This document shows positions 51,749 through 59,892 of a DNA stretch of 64,000 bases, in pieces. The notes beneath the pieces are model-generated. The model was not told the DNA's origin. It worked only from the letters and a program-made list of their open reading frames with translations, and searched no databases. How positions within the stretch are numbered: position 1 is the stretch's first letter; each line of letters opens with the position of its first letter. Origin of the DNA: Isosphaeraceae bacterium (GTDB taxonomy: Bacteria; Planctomycetota; Planctomycetia; Isosphaerales; Isosphaeraceae); NCBI GenBank assembly GCA_025356475.1, contig JANXSX010000043.1:1-64000 (forward strand), in the 5' to 3' direction. A program made the translations under genes and the position numbers.

Positions 51749-53200
51749 TCATGAGCGGATTGTGTCCCACCTCGTGGCGGCGACCGTTCCGAACAGGATC
51801 AAGGGAACCCATGCTGCCAGGTCCGGGCTTGGGAGGACTGCATTTGTCCCGAGGTATTGCATGAAAAAGCTGACCGCATAGAACAAGCCTGACGTGCCGA
51901 GTGACAGTCCCATGTTGATAAACATGTTTCGTGTGGAGCCCCCCAAGACCAAGGGCAGGCTGAGGAACATGAGGCAAAGACTTGAGAATGGTCGAATCAT
52001 CCTCGTATGAAGGAAGACAGAAATATCCGCTCGTTCGGGTTCGCTGGCTGGGTCAGAGAGGGCTTTGATCAATTCCACCGTCGAGGCAAACTGATACCAC
52101 TCACCGGGCTTGCGAGTCACACTTGTAAACGACAATCCGGTCCGGAAAAAGTAAGTCTCGTCACCAAGATCCGCGAGTGGGCCGGTCGCAGGGGGCATTC
52201 CGGTGATCTCGCCGAGCCGGACTAAACCTCGACCGATCGAGAGATCTTTGTCGGTCTTGGTCTGAACACCACGGAGGAGCCAGCCTCCACGCATGGGCGC
52301 AGTGGGATGATCGGTAGCGATGAAATCGGCCTGACGAGCGATGATCGTGCTTGGCTCGCCATCCCCTTCGGTTTCAAGTTGAAATTCCTGGTCGAATGCG
52401 GGCGATTTTGACGGCACAAGTAAGCGATCGACCCCGTGGAGGAAGTAGGATGCTGTCCCTTCAGGGGCGGCTTCGGCCACATACTTGGGGAACCGATCCA
52501 TGGCGACCAACCTGGTCAACACGCGATCATCAACTTCAGCAATCTCGGGCATCAAGCGAGCGCCGCGGAGGAGCCAACCTCCCCGGAGCCGGAATCGCTG
52601 ATCGGTAGGCTCAATCCAACGCGCCTGCTTGGCCTGGACCCAATAGAGCGAGCCATTCAGACTTGTTGGAATGGTGACGTTAAAGTTGGGAACGGTTTGC
52701 GTCTTCCGGTCGGCGAGCATCCCATCGACCAAGATCTCATTCGAGTCGGTTCGGCTGTATGTTTTGATCAAGAGCGAGCCATCGTCGTCGGGGGTCTTTG
52801 AAAGTTCGAGGCTCACTTTGGGGAGGATCAGCTCTTGGTTAGCGACTGCGATCAGGCCAACCAGGGCAGTTGAGATGAGGACAGGTCGGATGATTCGCTT
52901 AGCACCAATACCAGCAGCAAGCATAGCGATCAGTTCATTATTCTTCTGCATCCAGGTCACAGTGAAGATCGCCGCCATCATACTAATCACGCCGCAGAGC
53001 CGGTCATAAAACAAGCTCATGCGGATCAGATAATACCAACCCATATTCTTGAACAATTGGACAGGACCAACGGTCACCTTTGTGAACTCGTCTACGTTGG
53101 AAAATGCATCGATCACGACATAGAGGCCGACGAGCGCGACAAAGCAGATAAAATATGCTTTGATGAACGCCCAGTATCGCTCGCGATCGAGAATTCGCAT
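51749..53200 (-). CDS. LptF/LptG-family permease (second of the pair)
   Basis: 483 residues. Two N-terminal helices (about 10-30 and 55-120 with MSLFYDRLCGVISMMAAIFTVTWM), a large central extracytoplasmic beta-domain (about 130-380), and C-terminal helices (IRPFSSLCLMFLSLPLVLGG, FINMGLSLGTSGLFYAVSFF). This is the YjgP/YjgQ architecture of the LptB2FG complex that extracts lipopolysaccharide-like lipids from the inner membrane. GGAG lies eight bases before ATG 53200. It follows the other permease gene by 66 bases. Which of LptF or LptG it represents cannot be decided. Confidence 0.9.
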   Translation of the reverse strand: MRILDRERYWAFIKAYFICFVALVGLYVVIDAFSNVDEFTKVTVGPVQLFKNMGWYYLIRMSLFYDRLCGVISMMAAIFTVTWMQKNNELIAMLAAGIGAKRIIRPVLISTALVGLIAVANQELILPKVSLELSKTPDDDGSLLIKTYSRTDSNEILVDGMLADRKTQTVPNFNVTIPTSLNGSLYWVQAKQARWIEPTDQRFRLRGGWLLRGARLMPEIAEVDDRVLTRLVAMDRFPKYVAEAAPEGTASYFLHGVDRLLVPSKSPAFDQEFQLETEGDGEPSTIIARQADFIATDHPTAPMRGGWLLRGVQTKTDKDLSIGRGLVRLGEITGMPPATGPLADLGDETYFFRTGLSFTSVTRKPGEWYQFASTVELIKALSDPASEPERADISVFLHTRMIRPFSSLCLMFLSLPLVLGGSTRNMFINMGLSLGTSGLFYAVSFFMQYLGTNAVLPSPDLAAWVPLILFGTVAATRWDTIRS

Positions 53201-53266
53201 CGTCGGCTCCGCCCTGTCTTGAGAAGGAATCGCTGAGAATTCGACCTGGGAACAGCAGGGTAGTCG

Positions 53267-54478
53267 CTAGTGTCGCCAGACGGGTGGCATCGCTACGAAT
53301 CCAGCCAGGAATGCGAGAACCGCATTCCCAATCAGTACGAAGCTAGGGTCGATGATTCCCTCTTTACTCATGTTCATACCTAGGATTGTCAGCGGGTAAT
53401 AAATAATCAAGATTGGAATAAAGCACGTAATGAATGCACTCAAGAAGTCACGACGTGCGAAAATGATTCCGACCGGGGCACCTAATGCAACGAAGAAGAA
53501 GCTTCCGCTTGCCAGTGCAACTCGCATATATTGCTCAGTGACGAACTGGTTGCAGCGCATCTCCCAATAGTCATATTTCAGATACGCATCCTGCACTTCA
53601 CGCCAGTTGACCCGGTAAAATCGGCCCGAGCCTAGGTTCATTGCAGCGGCGACTGCTTGCTTAAGTCGCTCTTCGGACATCAGTTTTTGATTCGCGACGT
53701 ACTCGGCATCAAGCTCCGCCCAAGTCAGTTCCTGAACTTTTTTCTCATTCGACATGCTGCCGTTACCCGGGATCGGGAACTCGAAGCCTTTGTTGCCATC
53801 GAGCAGAATCACATTCGCTTTCGAGCCCCCCTCACGGACGGTGGCATCTTCGAGAGTGACTAAAACCTTGCCCGTATCGAAGTTGAAGTCGAGGGTGGCA
53901 CGCTCGGCATGGACGACCATATCAAATGTATTGGGGCTGCCAGGTTTGCGATGTTTGAACACCGCCTTCTGCATGATTCGCCCTTCGACATCCTTGACCT
54001 TGATCAAGAATGGCCAACCACCCATGTTGACTTCACGCTCCTTCTTGAGCGTCTTGTAGAAATAGTCTTCAAGATTATTAAAAATGATCTTCGTCGTATA
54101 ATAGTTCGATTTGGGGATCACATCCATCGAGACATAAAGCAGCGTCGCCGCAATTACGAGCCCAAGCGTCCAAGCAGGCTTAATGACTGTGATCGCGCTC
54201 AAGCCGGCCGACTTGATCGCAATGATTTCGTTGTCTGACGCAATTCGCCCATAGACCAGGCTTACCGCAAAAAGCAACGAGACCGGCACTGTATAAACAA
54301 GTGTCATTGGAATGATATATGGAATCAACCTTGCGATGTCAAGTGGAGCGAGCCCTTTCCGGGCTGCTTCCTGCATCACCATGAAGAGGACGAAGATCGT
54401 CGTGATCGTCATCAACGCCATCGCGAATGAGCGAATGATTTCACCCACCACGTAGCGTTGTAAGATTCCAAACTTCAC
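53267..54478 (-). CDS. LptF/LptG-family permease (first of the pair)
   Basis: 403 residues. The start is GTG 54478 because AAGGAGG lies five bases before it; the frame extends to 54517. N-terminus KFGILQRYVVGEIIRSF is typical of the family, followed by helices IITIFVLFMVM-like and VYTVPVSLLFAVSLVYGRIASDNE, the central periplasmic domain (about 125-300) and three C-terminal helices (SGSFFFVALGAPVGIIFARR). Partner of the gene at 51749; together with the ATPase LptB, encoded elsewhere, they would form the transporter for outer-membrane lipid export. Confidence 0.9.
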   Translation of the reverse strand: MKFGILQRYVVGEIIRSFAMALMTITTIFVLFMVMQEAARKGLAPLDIARLIPYIIPMTLVYTVPVSLLFAVSLVYGRIASDNEIIAIKSAGLSAITVIKPAWTLGLVIAATLLYVSMDVIPKSNYYTTKIIFNNLEDYFYKTLKKEREVNMGGWPFLIKVKDVEGRIMQKAVFKHRKPGSPNTFDMVVHAERATLDFNFDTGKVLVTLEDATVREGGSKANVILLDGNKGFEFPIPGNGSMSNEKKVQELTWAELDAEYVANQKLMSEERLKQAVAAAMNLGSGRFYRVNWREVQDAYLKYDYWEMRCNQFVTEQYMRVALASGSFFFVALGAPVGIIFARRDFLSAFITCFIPILIIYYPLTILGMNMSKEGIIDPSFVLIGNAVLAFLAGFVAMPPVWRH

Positions 54479-54555
54479 GATCGCCTCCTTAGCATCCATG
54501 CCCAAAGGGCGAGTCAATCCGCAAGATTTTCATCGAGAGGTGGGCTCCGCCCAGC

Positions 54556-57312
54556 TCAAGAAACATGCTCCAAGCAGTGGGATAACGCCTGCCCCAGCCG
54601 CTTGACCCCTTCCACCAAATCGGCTTCGTTCGCCACTCCGAAGCTCAGCCGAGCGTGGTTCGTCGGTACGGGTCCAGTGGCCGCGCTGAAGCAGTAGGCA
54701 CCGGGGACGTAGATCACACCTTCATCCAGGCACGTTTGAAACAACCGCCCATCCCGACCCGTATCGAGCCCCTCGGGGACCGTCAACCAGACGAACAGGC
54801 CTCCGGCTCCACGGGTCCAGCTCAAGTCTGGATCGATCGGTTTGAGATAGATATCAAGCGCGTTGAGGAAGCGATCGCGTTTCTGACGATAGACCCCGAT
54901 GATCCTCTCGAGGTGCCGGTCATAGTGTCCGTCGGCCATGACTTGCTCGAGGATCAACTGATTGAGGTTGGCTGACCCGAAGTCGTGATTTCCCTTGAGA
55001 CAAATCAGTGGTGAGACGAGTGCTGTTGGCAAGATTCCATACCCTGTCTTGATCCCAGGGCTAAAGGTCTTACTGAAGCTGCGGGCCAGAATCACCCCTT
55101 CGCCGTCACGATCATCGTGTCCCCATAACGTCTTGGGCTCAACGCCGTCGAACGAAAGACCGCGATACGCAGCGTCATCGAGAACCAGGATTTGGTGACG
55201 TTTTGACCACTTGCGGGCGACATCGATCAGTGGCATCCGCCGATCTGCGGCCAGGCTGATCCCTGTGGGATTTGAATGTTCAGTGACAGTATAAATCAGC
55301 TTGACTCGATCGAGCTTGCCTTGCGATTCCAAGTCCGCGAGGGTTGCCTCGAGTGCATCGATCTTAATGCCCCCCTCGTCGGTCTCGACCCCAATCGCCA
55401 CTGCGCCACGACAATCGAGGTTGCCGAGAAAGACGAAGTAGGTCGGGGCTTCCACCAAGACGATATCGCCCGGGTTGAGCAAAGACTCGGAGACCATATA
55501 AAGGAGTTGCGCCGAGCCGGTCGTGACGATGGTTCTAGGAAGCAAGTGCGCATATGTGCCGGGGGCAACACCGTCGGTTTTCTCCTGATGGATCAGGAGT
55601 TGCTTACGGAGGCCAACATCGCCGGGAGTCGTCCCATACTGCATCGCCCTTCGCCCTTCGCCAGGGTTGCTGAGGAGTTCTTCGGCGACCTGAGCGGTAA
55701 TTTCGATCGGTAGGGAAGCCTGGTCGACGAACCCGGCCGCGAGTGAAATCAGACCTGGGTTGGCGAGCGCCGTTTGCATTAGCTCGCTGATGGCCGGGGT
55801 GCGTATTCGGTTGGCGGTTTCGCTCAGAAGGGGCTCGGGAGTCATGGTCGGTGCGCCGATGGGTGGAGGAACCGGGATTGGGTCGGCTCTTGGTACTGTA
55901 TCGGAGCGATCCAAGCTGTCAAGGAGAGGTGGGGCCAGCTCTCTTGCTTCGTCGACGGTCGAGTTAGTCATTGAGAGACGAGGCGGCTCGTTCGGGTTCA
56001 CGAGTGTTGGCAACGAATCGTAAAAGGGGTCGTGGACTCCTTTAACATAACCAATCATCGCCTGTGCGGTTGGATCGGCGGCGAAGTGGCGTGGGGCTCG
56101 TGCGGGCAAAACCCGGTTGTAGAGCACCGTGACCGACGACTTGGGTCGATAACCCCGATGGGCTTCGATCTCCCGAAAAATCGCGTCGAGTGGCTGTTCC
56201 TGGACGACGAACCGGTAGATCCCCATCCAAGCCGGCGATCGATCCATGCACCCGTGACAGTGGACAAGAATCGGCCAGGCTGCAGGGTCTCGGGCTAGCT
56301 TCAGTGTTTCATCTAAGAAGATGTCGCTATTGATCGCTCCAGGAGGACTTCCTACATAGCGAATGTTGTTTTCTCGACAAAAGCGAAGCTCGTCGGGCGA
56401 GAGTGGGCTCTTTTGCGAACTCGACTCGTCGAACAGATTGATGATCGTCTTGAACCCATGACGTGCATGGGCAACCTGAAGACCCCGATAGGTCGGCATC
56501 GCACTCATGTAGATCTTGCCTGGTTCCACAGTGTGTAACCGGGCCAAGGGTCGGTGGTACCAAGACAATCCAATACCACTCCCCACGAGTCCAAACCAGC
56601 AGAGTAACCCGACCAACCCAAGCTTGAGTTTCGGGCTGCTTCCGGTTGGTAGGTTGGGTGAGTTCTTGATCAGGAGTAGCCCAAATGCGCTCAAACCCCA
56701 GACGAACGACCAACGCTCCCAGTAGCCGATCGGCTCGATATTGGGGATCTCAACCTGACGCAAGATCACAAAGAATGTTGCGAAAGCGCCAAGAGCCATG
56801 CTTTCGAGTCGTCGATTCTTGAGAAGCGGTTTCCAGAGGATGAAGGCCTTCAGGAACGGCCAAAGCCCATATGCAAATAGGGCTGTGGTTGCGAGCCCGA
56901 TCGCCCAACGCGTTGATTCCGGGGCCGTGGCGGTGACTATCGTCGTGAAGCCGAATCCATGCCAACCATCAAAGGTTGGGCCAGGGGTCGAGGCATGCCA
57001 TAAGGCCCCCAACGATAGGGCCAACGCGGTTTGCCAGAGGGTGCCCGGGGCTCGAAATGTGCCTCGTAAGGCGACAACGATGCAAATTGAGGAGAGATAG
57101 ATCGCAATCCGATCGATCGTATCGCCAGGCTCAGCAAGTCGATAGGCTGGCGGCGGCCTCAGGTTGTAGGTTGGACGGATGACGGCTGGATATTCCGGGT
57201 CGAGATCTTCAGGGAAGTCGAGCCAGTGCCAGACGGCAGGAGTGACCAGGGCCAGTAGAACGAGCCAGGGCCAGGCCCGCGTAAACCAACCGAGCGGTGT
57301 CCGAGATTCCAC
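54556..57312 (-). CDS. Fusion: membrane domain + dual-specificity phosphatase + PLP aminotransferase
   Basis: 918 residues from GTG 57312 (GGAGG seven bases upstream). Residues about 1-250 contain six or seven hydrophobic helices. About 262-412 is a DSP/PTP-like phosphatase domain: HCHGCMDRSP gives Cys352-x5-Arg358, preceded by KTIINLFDE as in phosphatase relatives. A Pro-rich linker (about 413-490) leads to a complete fold-type I aminotransferase (about 495-918) of the MocR/2-aminoadipate type: EHSNPTG, LDDAAYRGL, PLP-Lys748 in SFSKTFSPGIKTGYG and RLSFG. No stop or internal ribosome-binding site is visible between the parts. A single bifunctional protein or a fused pair of genes are both possible. 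Confidence 0.85.
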   Translation of the reverse strand: MESRTPLGWFTRAWPWLVLLALVTPAVWHWLDFPEDLDPEYPAVIRPTYNLRPPPAYRLAEPGDTIDRIAIYLSSICIVVALRGTFRAPGTLWQTALALSLGALWHASTPGPTFDGWHGFGFTTIVTATAPESTRWAIGLATTALFAYGLWPFLKAFILWKPLLKNRRLESMALGAFATFFVILRQVEIPNIEPIGYWERWSFVWGLSAFGLLLIKNSPNLPTGSSPKLKLGLVGLLCWFGLVGSGIGLSWYHRPLARLHTVEPGKIYMSAMPTYRGLQVAHARHGFKTIINLFDESSSQKSPLSPDELRFCRENNIRYVGSPPGAINSDIFLDETLKLARDPAAWPILVHCHGCMDRSPAWMGIYRFVVQEQPLDAIFREIEAHRGYRPKSSVTVLYNRVLPARAPRHFAADPTAQAMIGYVKGVHDPFYDSLPTLVNPNEPPRLSMTNSTVDEARELAPPLLDSLDRSDTVPRADPIPVPPPIGAPTMTPEPLLSETANRIRTPAISELMQTALANPGLISLAAGFVDQASLPIEITAQVAEELLSNPGEGRRAMQYGTTPGDVGLRKQLLIHQEKTDGVAPGTYAHLLPRTIVTTGSAQLLYMVSESLLNPGDIVLVEAPTYFVFLGNLDCRGAVAIGVETDEGGIKIDALEATLADLESQGKLDRVKLIYTVTEHSNPTGISLAADRRMPLIDVARKWSKRHQILVLDDAAYRGLSFDGVEPKTLWGHDDRDGEGVILARSFSKTFSPGIKTGYGILPTALVSPLICLKGNHDFGSANLNQLILEQVMADGHYDRHLERIIGVYRQKRDRFLNALDIYLKPIDPDLSWTRGAGGLFVWLTVPEGLDTGRDGRLFQTCLDEGVIYVPGAYCFSAATGPVPTNHARLSFGVANEADLVEGVKRLGQALSHCLEHVS

Positions 57313-57411
57313 AGCCCGGCCTCCATGCCTTGAGTGGTAACGAGGCATCTTTAACCGGTTCGGGGTTTTGACGCAAGGGCAAGAGAGGGCTGGCAATCAT
57401 GCCAGTCGATC

Positions 57412-58335
57412 TCAGGCAGCCTGACCTTCAGTGGAGTTCCAGAAGAAATAATCGTTGGAATTCATCGGATCGAGGCGGATCCGTCCCTCAATCTCGTCGA
57501 GAACTCTCTGAACCCAGGGGGCGGTCGATTCCCTCCGAGACTCTTCGGGGGGAATGTGAAACGCCTCGCTGAATTCGAGTCGGTAACCACCATCAGGGCT
57601 AACCCCGCAGAAGACGGGAACGATCGCAGCGCCAGTCATCCCGGCGAGCGAAAGCCAAGTGGTCGAGAACGTGTAAGACGCTCCCAGAAAGCGAGCGGTT
57701 GCGGCGTGCGGCCCGCTCCACCGGACATCACCCGCAAGGTGCATGATCAGGCCCGAGCGAATTGCCCGAGCTGCGCGAAGGATCGAGCTGGCAGCGTCGC
57801 AAGCGTCACCGCGCCGGGAGATGAACAGCTTTTTCTGACCGAGCGGTCCATCATCATCAAAATGGCTCATCATAAACTTTGAGACATGACGAGGACGCTC
57901 CATATAGAGCCTGAGTGGATATCGCTCTCGATAGAGCCAATGGGCGGGTAAAAGGTGGGCTCCGAAGTGGTTGCCCAGCAGGATCACTCCATTACCGGCC
58001 TCAATCGCGTTATCCAGATTCTCTCGACCCATCACTTCAAATAACGGCCTAATCGATTGCGTTGGACGCCCATCAAGCAAGAGGTCGCGGGTCCGCCACC
58101 GGACGATATTCCCCGCGAGTCCCTGGCTCACCTCAGGCACATCCCAACAGCAACCGAGCAGGTCCCCACCCCGAGTTACGGCCTCGTCATATGAGGACTT
58201 GATTGTGTTTGCACAGGCGTATTTGGTACGACCGACCCAGTCCAGGAATCGCGAGCCGACACGGGGCGGCATCGTCCGCAGCGCAGGGAGGATGAATCGG
58301 ATGATCCCCTTGCGTAGGTTGAGCGTTCCTGGCAT
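57412..58335 (-). CDS. LpxL/HtrB-like lipid acyltransferase
   Basis: 307 residues of the lysophospholipid acyltransferase superfamily that transfers acyl chains from ACP to lipid A or related lipids. VILLGNHFGAHLLP corresponds to the catalytic HxxxxE/D box; His is present but the expected acidic residue is Leu, with a second His nearby. HLAGDVRWSGP matches the later conserved Asp-containing block and FLGASYTF the substrate box. No N-terminal membrane helix of the usual kind is seen beyond FILPALRTM. It follows the ACP gene by 47 bases and is part of a KS-ACP-acyltransferase run. Confidence 0.82.
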   Translation of the reverse strand: MPGTLNLRKGIIRFILPALRTMPPRVGSRFLDWVGRTKYACANTIKSSYDEAVTRGGDLLGCCWDVPEVSQGLAGNIVRWRTRDLLLDGRPTQSIRPLFEVMGRENLDNAIEAGNGVILLGNHFGAHLLPAHWLYRERYPLRLYMERPRHVSKFMMSHFDDDGPLGQKKLFISRRGDACDAASSILRAARAIRSGLIMHLAGDVRWSGPHAATARFLGASYTFSTTWLSLAGMTGAAIVPVFCGVSPDGGYRLEFSEAFHIPPEESRRESTAPWVQRVLDEIEGRIRLDPMNSNDYFFWNSTEGQAA

Positions 58336-58382
58336 GCGACTCGTGCCCCCTGCGAATTCTGCGGAATTGAGACCTGGCCCGT

Positions 58383-58643
58383 TCAGGCCGCTGCGGAACT
58401 ATCGAATCTGGCGGCGACGTACTCCGCCAGGTCGGCGATCGACCTCAATGATGTGACATCATCGTCTTCAATGATGACTCCGTAGTCATCCTGGACCTTG
58501 ACGATGATGCCGACCAAGTCGAGCGAGTCGATCGCCAGATCTTCTACCAATCGGCTGCTCGGAAGCAGGTTGACATGTGCAGGAACACGTCCGAATCGGC
58601 GGACCATCCGTAGGAGTTCATCTAACATTAAAGAGTTACTCAT
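58383..58643 (-). CDS. Acyl carrier protein
   Basis: 86 residues. The 4'-phosphopantetheine attachment site is Ser40 in AIDSLDLVGI, within the usual four-helix pattern and an acidic helix 2. Overlaps the end of the beta-ketoacyl synthase gene by eight bases (ATGAGTAA), so translation is coupled. It is a dedicated carrier rather than the main fatty-acid ACP, judging from its neighbours. Confidence 0.93.
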   Translation of the reverse strand: MSNSLMLDELLRMVRRFGRVPAHVNLLPSSRLVEDLAIDSLDLVGIIVKVQDDYGVIIEDDDVTSLRSIADLAEYVAARFDSSAAA

Positions 58644-59892
58644 CGACCCACCTCTTCATCAGTATCGCGTTGTTGGTCCCGCCAAAGCCGAACGAAGCAC
58701 TCATCACAGTATCGACCCGTGTCGATCGCGCCTGATTCGGAACATAATCAAGGTCCAGTTCAGGATCGGCTACGTAATTGATCGTCGGTGGAATGATCTG
58801 ATCGCGGAGGACACGGAGACAAATCACGGCCTCGATTGCCGATGCTGCCCCCAAACTGTGGCCGATTGCACCCTTGACCGAACTGATCGGCATCCGGGTG
58901 GAATGCGGGCCAAAAATCGTCTTAATGGCCTGAGTCTCGACTCGGTCATTGACGATCGTGCTCGTCCCGTGAGCGTTGTAATAATCGATATCTTCAGGCG
59001 TTAGTCCACATCGCGTCAGGACTTGGCGCAAGCATTTCTCGATTGTTGCACCGTGTGGCATCGCCATGTGAAAACCGTCAGTGTTGATCGAATGACCGAG
59101 ATATTCCGCTTGGACCCGTAATCCCAGCCGTCGTGCGGCTGACTCGGTCGCCAAGATAACAGTACCCGCCCCTTCTGACATCACGAACCCTGCGCGGTCG
59201 GCGCTAAAGGGTCGACTCGCCTGGCTGGGATCGTCTGCCGATCGATCCGTCGATCTCCGGCCGAGTAGAGCCTTCATGGTCGCGAACCCATTGACAATCG
59301 CTGGTGTGAAGGCACTTTCGGTTCCTCCCGCGATAGCCAGGTCGGCTTCTCCCATTCTCAGGAACATCGCAGCAAGTGCGATGGAGTGAACCCCGGTCGC
59401 GCAGGCGTTCGACGGGGCAACGCTTGGACCGTGTAAGTCGAAGAGCTGGGCGACCTGCCCTGCAGCCTGATTAATCACCAAGGCGGGGATCAGGTATGGA
59501 CTCATCGACAGTGACTTGCGTGTCAAGGATCGCTGTTGCTCCGACTCCAGAAGGTCCTGCCCACCGAATGCCGAGCCGATCACGACTGCAACTCGGTCGC
59601 GGTCGAAATCCTTGCCAGCGAGCCCGGCATCGGACCAGGCCTCGCGTGCCGATGCGACTGCAAAGTGGATTGACCGTGCGGACAGTCGTGAAACGGCGGG
59701 GTCTTCGCCGGCAGTTCCAGGGCCGATCCCTTCGACCATCCCGGCGATATCTTGGAGGTAGCGATCGGCACTTAGAGCAGGATGACGACGAATCCCTGAC
59801 TTGCCAGCGAGCAAGCCAGCCCACGTCGAGTCCGTGTCGGATCCGAGACAGGTGATCGCCGAATGTCCCACTACCAAGATCCGTTCGGTCAT
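58636..59892 (-). CDS. Beta-ketoacyl-ACP synthase (FabF-like)
   Basis: Condenses acyl groups with malonyl-ACP. 418 residues, KAS II length. Catalytic triad: Cys164 in SNACATGVHS, His308 in NAHGTST, His345 in KGAIGHSLGAASAIE. The C-terminus has SFGFGGTNNAILMKR. First gene of a minus-strand run KS-ACP-acyltransferase-fusion-LptF/G, so it is probably specialised for an envelope lipid. The promoter should lie in the 200 bases shared with the divergent hydrolase gene. Confidence 0.94.
   Translation of the reverse strand: MTERILVVGHSAITCLGSDTDSTWAGLLAGKSGIRRHPALSADRYLQDIAGMVEGIGPGTAGEDPAVSRLSARSIHFAVASAREAWSDAGLAGKDFDRDRVAVVIGSAFGGQDLLESEQQRSLTRKSLSMSPYLIPALVINQAAGQVAQLFDLHGPSVAPSNACATGVHSIALAAMFLRMGEADLAIAGGTESAFTPAIVNGFATMKALLGRRSTDRSADDPSQASRPFSADRAGFVMSEGAGTVILATESAARRLGLRVQAEYLGHSINTDGFHMAMPHGATIEKCLRQVLTRCGLTPEDIDYYNAHGTSTIVNDRVETQAIKTIFGPHSTRMPISSVKGAIGHSLGAASAIEAVICLRVLRDQIIPPTINYVADPELDLDYVPNQARSTRVDTVMSASFGFGGTNNAILMKRWVDE

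Follow-up and report, generated by a model that had tools for sequence, protein, structure and literature searches.

The two enzymes treated here have their closest described relatives in different families. The SIW14/PFA-DSP atypical dual-specificity phosphatases (6byf, 7mol, 1xri) and TpbA have a CX5R loop and a fold in common with the first; the LysN, kynurenine-aminoadipate (KAT II) and archaeal multi-substrate aminotransferases (1x0m, 3aov, 2egy, 4gdy) are similar to the second over its full length (E 1e-55 to 1e-33). In the stretch of Isosphaeraceae DNA analysed here (the window: 64,000 nucleotides, the positions of which are used throughout), homologs of both are encoded in one open reading frame, which a preliminary description took for a single three-part protein of an order not known to it from any described protein. 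A literature search for a phosphatase-aminotransferase fusion, or for Isosphaeraceae translation signals, found nothing relevant. Is this an evolved fusion or a pair of genes that have run together? The stop between the two is absent in the window and present in every relative with adjacent genes, and the promoter and ATG of the aminotransferase gene (AT) are intact inside the run-on. We consider it very probable that two ordinary genes, both members of a conserved lipid operon, have undergone a lineage-specific, accidental run-on, with AT made separately from its own promoter and some fused protein as a by-product.

The open frame and its two enzymes

The minus-strand frame from 57396 to 54556 has zero internal stops and comprises 946 codons from the first TTG or 918 from GTG 57312, with the following parts:

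54556..57396, minus strand: whole run-on open reading frame; possible starts TTG 57396, ATG 57348 and GTG 57312, stop 54558-54556
56536..57312, minus strand: polytopic membrane region of the phosphatase protein, residues 1-259 (hydropathy; AlphaFold2 model)
56044..56535, minus strand: CX5R phosphatase domain, SIW14/PFA-DSP-like fold, residues 260-423 (Pfam PF03162, phmmer, Foldseek)
56239..56259, minus strand: phosphatase signature C352-X5-R358 (C, H, D and R columns conserved in orthologs)
55846..56022, minus strand: so-called Pro-rich linker, residues 431-489
54556..55845, minus strand: AT gene proper, residues 490-918, 429 aa, class I, LysN/KAT-II-like (conserved ATG 55845; PF00155; PDB relatives 1x0m, 3aov, 2egy)
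55069..55071, minus strand: PLP-binding lysine K748 (SFSK), invariant in 43 homologs

Residues are numbered from GTG 57312. On the letters of the window the preliminary description was right: the frame is stop-free, whether read from 57396 or from 57312, it runs from a membrane region through a CX5R phosphatase to a complete aminotransferase, and each enzyme has kept its catalytic site. The assignment of the DNA to Isosphaeraceae was right as well.

The phosphatase loop, HCHGCMDR (residues 351-358), is of the C-X5-R type and is conserved in orthologs. Structure prediction, which had been proposed as a check, gave an AlphaFold2 model of residues 1-440 with a mean pLDDT of 78, in which the N-terminal part forms seven long helices and the phosphatase domain matches SIW14/PFA-DSP structures (Foldseek against 6byf, 2.2e-5, prob 1.00), with the CX5R P-loop set in a PTP fold. 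Sequence similarity to SIW14 and TpbA is weak (phmmer against 6byf, 2.8e-4), and the match to PF03162 (0.002, 18.2 bits) lies under the gathering cutoff of 27. Because this threshold is missed, the modeled domain is described as resembling the SIW14/PFA-DSP family and is not filed as a member. The membrane phosphatase was seen in Isosphaeraceae only in the family and class-level searches, with none outside the family at E 1e-30 among the matches listed.

AT matches PF00155 above the cutoff (4.4e-25, residues 521-905). Its catalytic residues Y559, N681, D713, Y716, K748 and R888, which supply the PLP lysine, the Asn, the Asp/Tyr pair and the carboxylate-binding Arg of class I PLP aminotransferases, are invariant in the 43 homologs. 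By its domain and residues AT is a class I aminotransferase, and by similarity it is LysN/KAT-II-like.

Gene neighborhood

The two genes lie in a cluster (51749-59892, minus strand) whose order, ketoacyl synthase, ACP-like protein, LpxL-like acyltransferase, membrane phosphatase, AT, LptF and LptG, is kept across Isosphaeraceae. The other members in the window are:

58636..59892, minus strand: beta-ketoacyl synthase (order conserved)
58383..58643, minus strand: ACP-sized open reading frame, conserved in relatives, with a putative ACP role judged from size and position
57412..58335, minus strand: LpxL-like acyltransferase (PF03279), upstream neighbor (order conserved)
53267..54517, minus strand: LptF (PF03739), downstream neighbor (order conserved)
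51749..53200, minus strand: LptG (PF03739), downstream neighbor (order conserved)

Because this order is conserved it suggests, without proving it, that the substrate of the membrane phosphatase is a lipid which the cluster makes or exports; the protein may be a lipid phosphatase.

Phosphatase and AT in other Isosphaeraceae

The comparison took in 45 Isosphaeraceae genomes, and the locus was taken from the 18 others in which the phosphatase gene and AT stand side by side; the genus of the window genome is represented by one species. In all 18 of these adjacent pairs the phosphatase frame comes to a stop ahead of, or at, the AT start (in G020 the stop lies just past the AT ATG, in another frame). 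The homologs thus consistently encode the two proteins separately, which the preliminary description had itself named as evidence against its reading, and the notion of an evolved three-part protein is not supported. An evolved fusion should be kept in more than one species; the joined arrangement recurs in none of the 18, and neither the family-wide nor the class-wide searches returned another fused copy. Outside the family, among some 250 class-level genomes, the matches listed cover AT only and none covers the phosphatase. A 1062-aa open frame in G002 was rejected as a fusion since it has a stop at the phosphatase end and another before AT; likewise rejected were tblastn matches in G003, G006 and G041, each a single match that extends over both parts but has 3-5 stops in the linker. 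The two genes are apart, on different contigs or far off in the same replicon, in about 20 further genomes, although draft contig breaks may mask adjacency in some of these. Both genes are on one contig in G023, G049, G052 and G058, at distances from about 75 kb (G052) to several Mb.

How often would such a frame arise by chance? Among 19 adjacent pairs about 1.4 run-on frames are expected and one is observed, the estimate being drawn from the 18 relatives: 4 have linkers without a stop in the AT frame, and in about one third the phosphatase is read in that same frame. The joining of the two frames is no more than chance gives. Open frames of other kinds also occur at these loci: G023 has an unrelated, spurious one upstream of AT that is just as long as in the window (520 codons), and in G009, where the phosphatase is read in another frame, the AT frame crosses its gene without a stop for at least 480 codons. 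In a fairly GC-rich genome a two-domain open frame does not count as evidence for a fusion protein; automatic annotation would enter one at 54556..57396.

The linker as promoter and leader of the aminotransferase gene

In relatives, the region that corresponds to the Pro-rich linker holds a variable phosphatase tail, a stop and the predicted AT promoter and leader, as judged from alignments and a low coding score. Three elements were located in it in the window:

55975..55999, minus strand: second element, GAAC-N16-GTCTC (GAAC-N-GTSTC in 22 of 37 relatives, at varying distance; shuffled background 1.4%)
55917..55922, minus strand: predicted -35 box TTGACA of the AT gene (conserved motif)
55895..55900, minus strand: predicted -10 box TACAGT after a 16-nt spacer (TAGAGT, TACAGT or similar in relatives)

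Of 37 genomes, 34 have the motif TTGACN-N16-TANANT at a distance of 85-111 nt ahead of one and the same AT codon, as against 0.014% in base-composition shuffles of the upstream regions, and the motif combines the features of a sigma-70-type promoter, i.e. TTGACA/TATAAT-like hexamers, a spacer within 16-18 nt and a conserved position. It is also present at 15 AT loci whose upstream 1.5 kb lacks a phosphatase gene, and it therefore belongs to the AT gene. The window copy, TTGACA-N16-TACAGT (55922-55895), falls inside the linker, 95 nt from the reference codon, exactly the distance found in G005, G008, G009, G040, G042 and G056. Its conservation suggests that this promoter is active.

As a coding sequence the linker performs poorly: from the -35 box to the ATG the score is -0.09 bits per codon, versus +0.25 for the phosphatase and +0.35 for AT, which puts it at the 1.5th percentile of coding stretches, i.e. 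like noncoding DNA, although this is modest evidence because the codon model was built from 14 window genes only. The low score and the occurrence of the promoter upstream of unlinked ATs argue against a linker evolving as a peptide. Conservation of the Pro-rich stretch, which had been put forward as a check on the fusion, was found in the form of promoter and leader elements, with no conserved peptide. On this comparative evidence the linker is most simply read as the AT gene's conserved promoter and 5' leader, and it would look odd as protein because promoter elements encode its residues.

Sites of this kind are rare: searching the whole genome (5.9 Mb) for TTGACA-N15-17-TANANT gave 13, compared with 8 in the reversed control, and the exact motif CTTGACA-N-TAGAGTA had no matches genome-wide. 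The second element we take to resemble an ECF-sigma promoter; GAACC-N-CGTGTC was not enriched genome-wide (3 versus 2 in the control). Since the CTTGACA motif gave nothing and the GAACC element is not enriched, no regulon is claimed.

ATG 55845 lies at or near the aligned start position of 31 of the 37 genomes. Of these 31 AT starts in the family, 28 begin ATGA. The preliminary description had noted that no ribosome-binding site precedes the aminotransferase; this is true of the window but lends no weight to a fusion, because a Shine-Dalgarno-like motif within 20 nt of the conserved ATG is found in only two of the 31 genomes. Its absence in the window accordingly says nothing against a separate AT start, the ATs of the 29 other relatives being without one too. 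The separate protein from ATG 55845 has a predicted mass of 46-47 kDa and the N-terminal peptide (M)TPEPLLSETANR.

Origin of the run-on and its likely products

In four relatives of the Singulisphaera acidiphila type (G008, G009, G042 and G056; loci L049, L050, L059 and L061) the phosphatase frame crosses the AT promoter and terminates within the ATGA start-stop overlap, at its TGA. The window phosphatase tail aligns in frame with these four up to the GAACC element (VNP versus ANP). From this element to the -35 box there are 77 nt in the window versus 61 nt in G008, G042 and G056; the two lengths differ by 16 nt, not a multiple of three. A change of this kind in the length of the unconserved spacer between the elements may have carried the tail into the AT frame and past the TGA. 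Most AT would still be a separate 429-aa protein expressed from the gene's own promoter, with transcription predicted to start near 55888 and translation at ATG 55845. On the longer message from upstream, ribosomes would also make a run-on protein (about 100 kDa) whose AT tail is tethered to the membrane. Such a fused product is likely on long transcripts because the frame is open, and a ribosome finishing the phosphatase enters AT; it is probably tolerated, not selected.

Could the fused protein be the point of the arrangement? A genuine functional fusion in the window lineage, in which the membrane phosphatase anchors AT at the membrane and the functional product is the 100-kDa protein, would account for the lack of a stop and for two intact catalytic sites. 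Against this, the joined frame is unique among the 19 adjacent pairs, its linker coincides with a conserved promoter and scores low as coding sequence, and an open frame is expected by chance; we therefore regard this reading as very improbable. Little probability attaches, too, to one gene with two useful products, a membrane-anchored phosphatase-AT from the operon promoter and a soluble AT from the promoter embedded in the linker. A further explanation is that the true stop was removed, or the frame shifted, near 55925-56000 by an indel or substitution introduced in error during sequencing or assembly. The assembly is a draft in 232 contigs, the stop is present in all relatives, and one indel in the spacer would alter the outcome. 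However, the linker contains no repeats and no long homopolymer, and spacer length varies so widely in relatives that a true change is equally plausible; we think an error highly unlikely. An accidental run-on of two ordinary genes, the reading we prefer, may offer a snapshot of how fusions begin: a stop is lost while the downstream promoter stays intact inside the new coding frame.

Comparison with described proteins and loci

Unlike SIW14/PFA-DSP and TpbA, to which its identity is about 22%, the window phosphatase sits on a polytopic membrane domain of seven helices that has no Pfam match. AT has the invariant PLP residues in common with the class I enzymes of the LysN/KAT II type but belongs to a lineage conserved across Planctomycetia, mostly with 42-49% identity outside Isosphaeraceae. 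The locus of Singulisphaera acidiphila DSM 18658 (NC_019892.1, L072) has the same gene order, 57-58% identity and the same promoter distance as the window; it differs in that its phosphatase frame ends, as in G056, at a TGA overlapping the AT ATG, so that it encodes two proteins.
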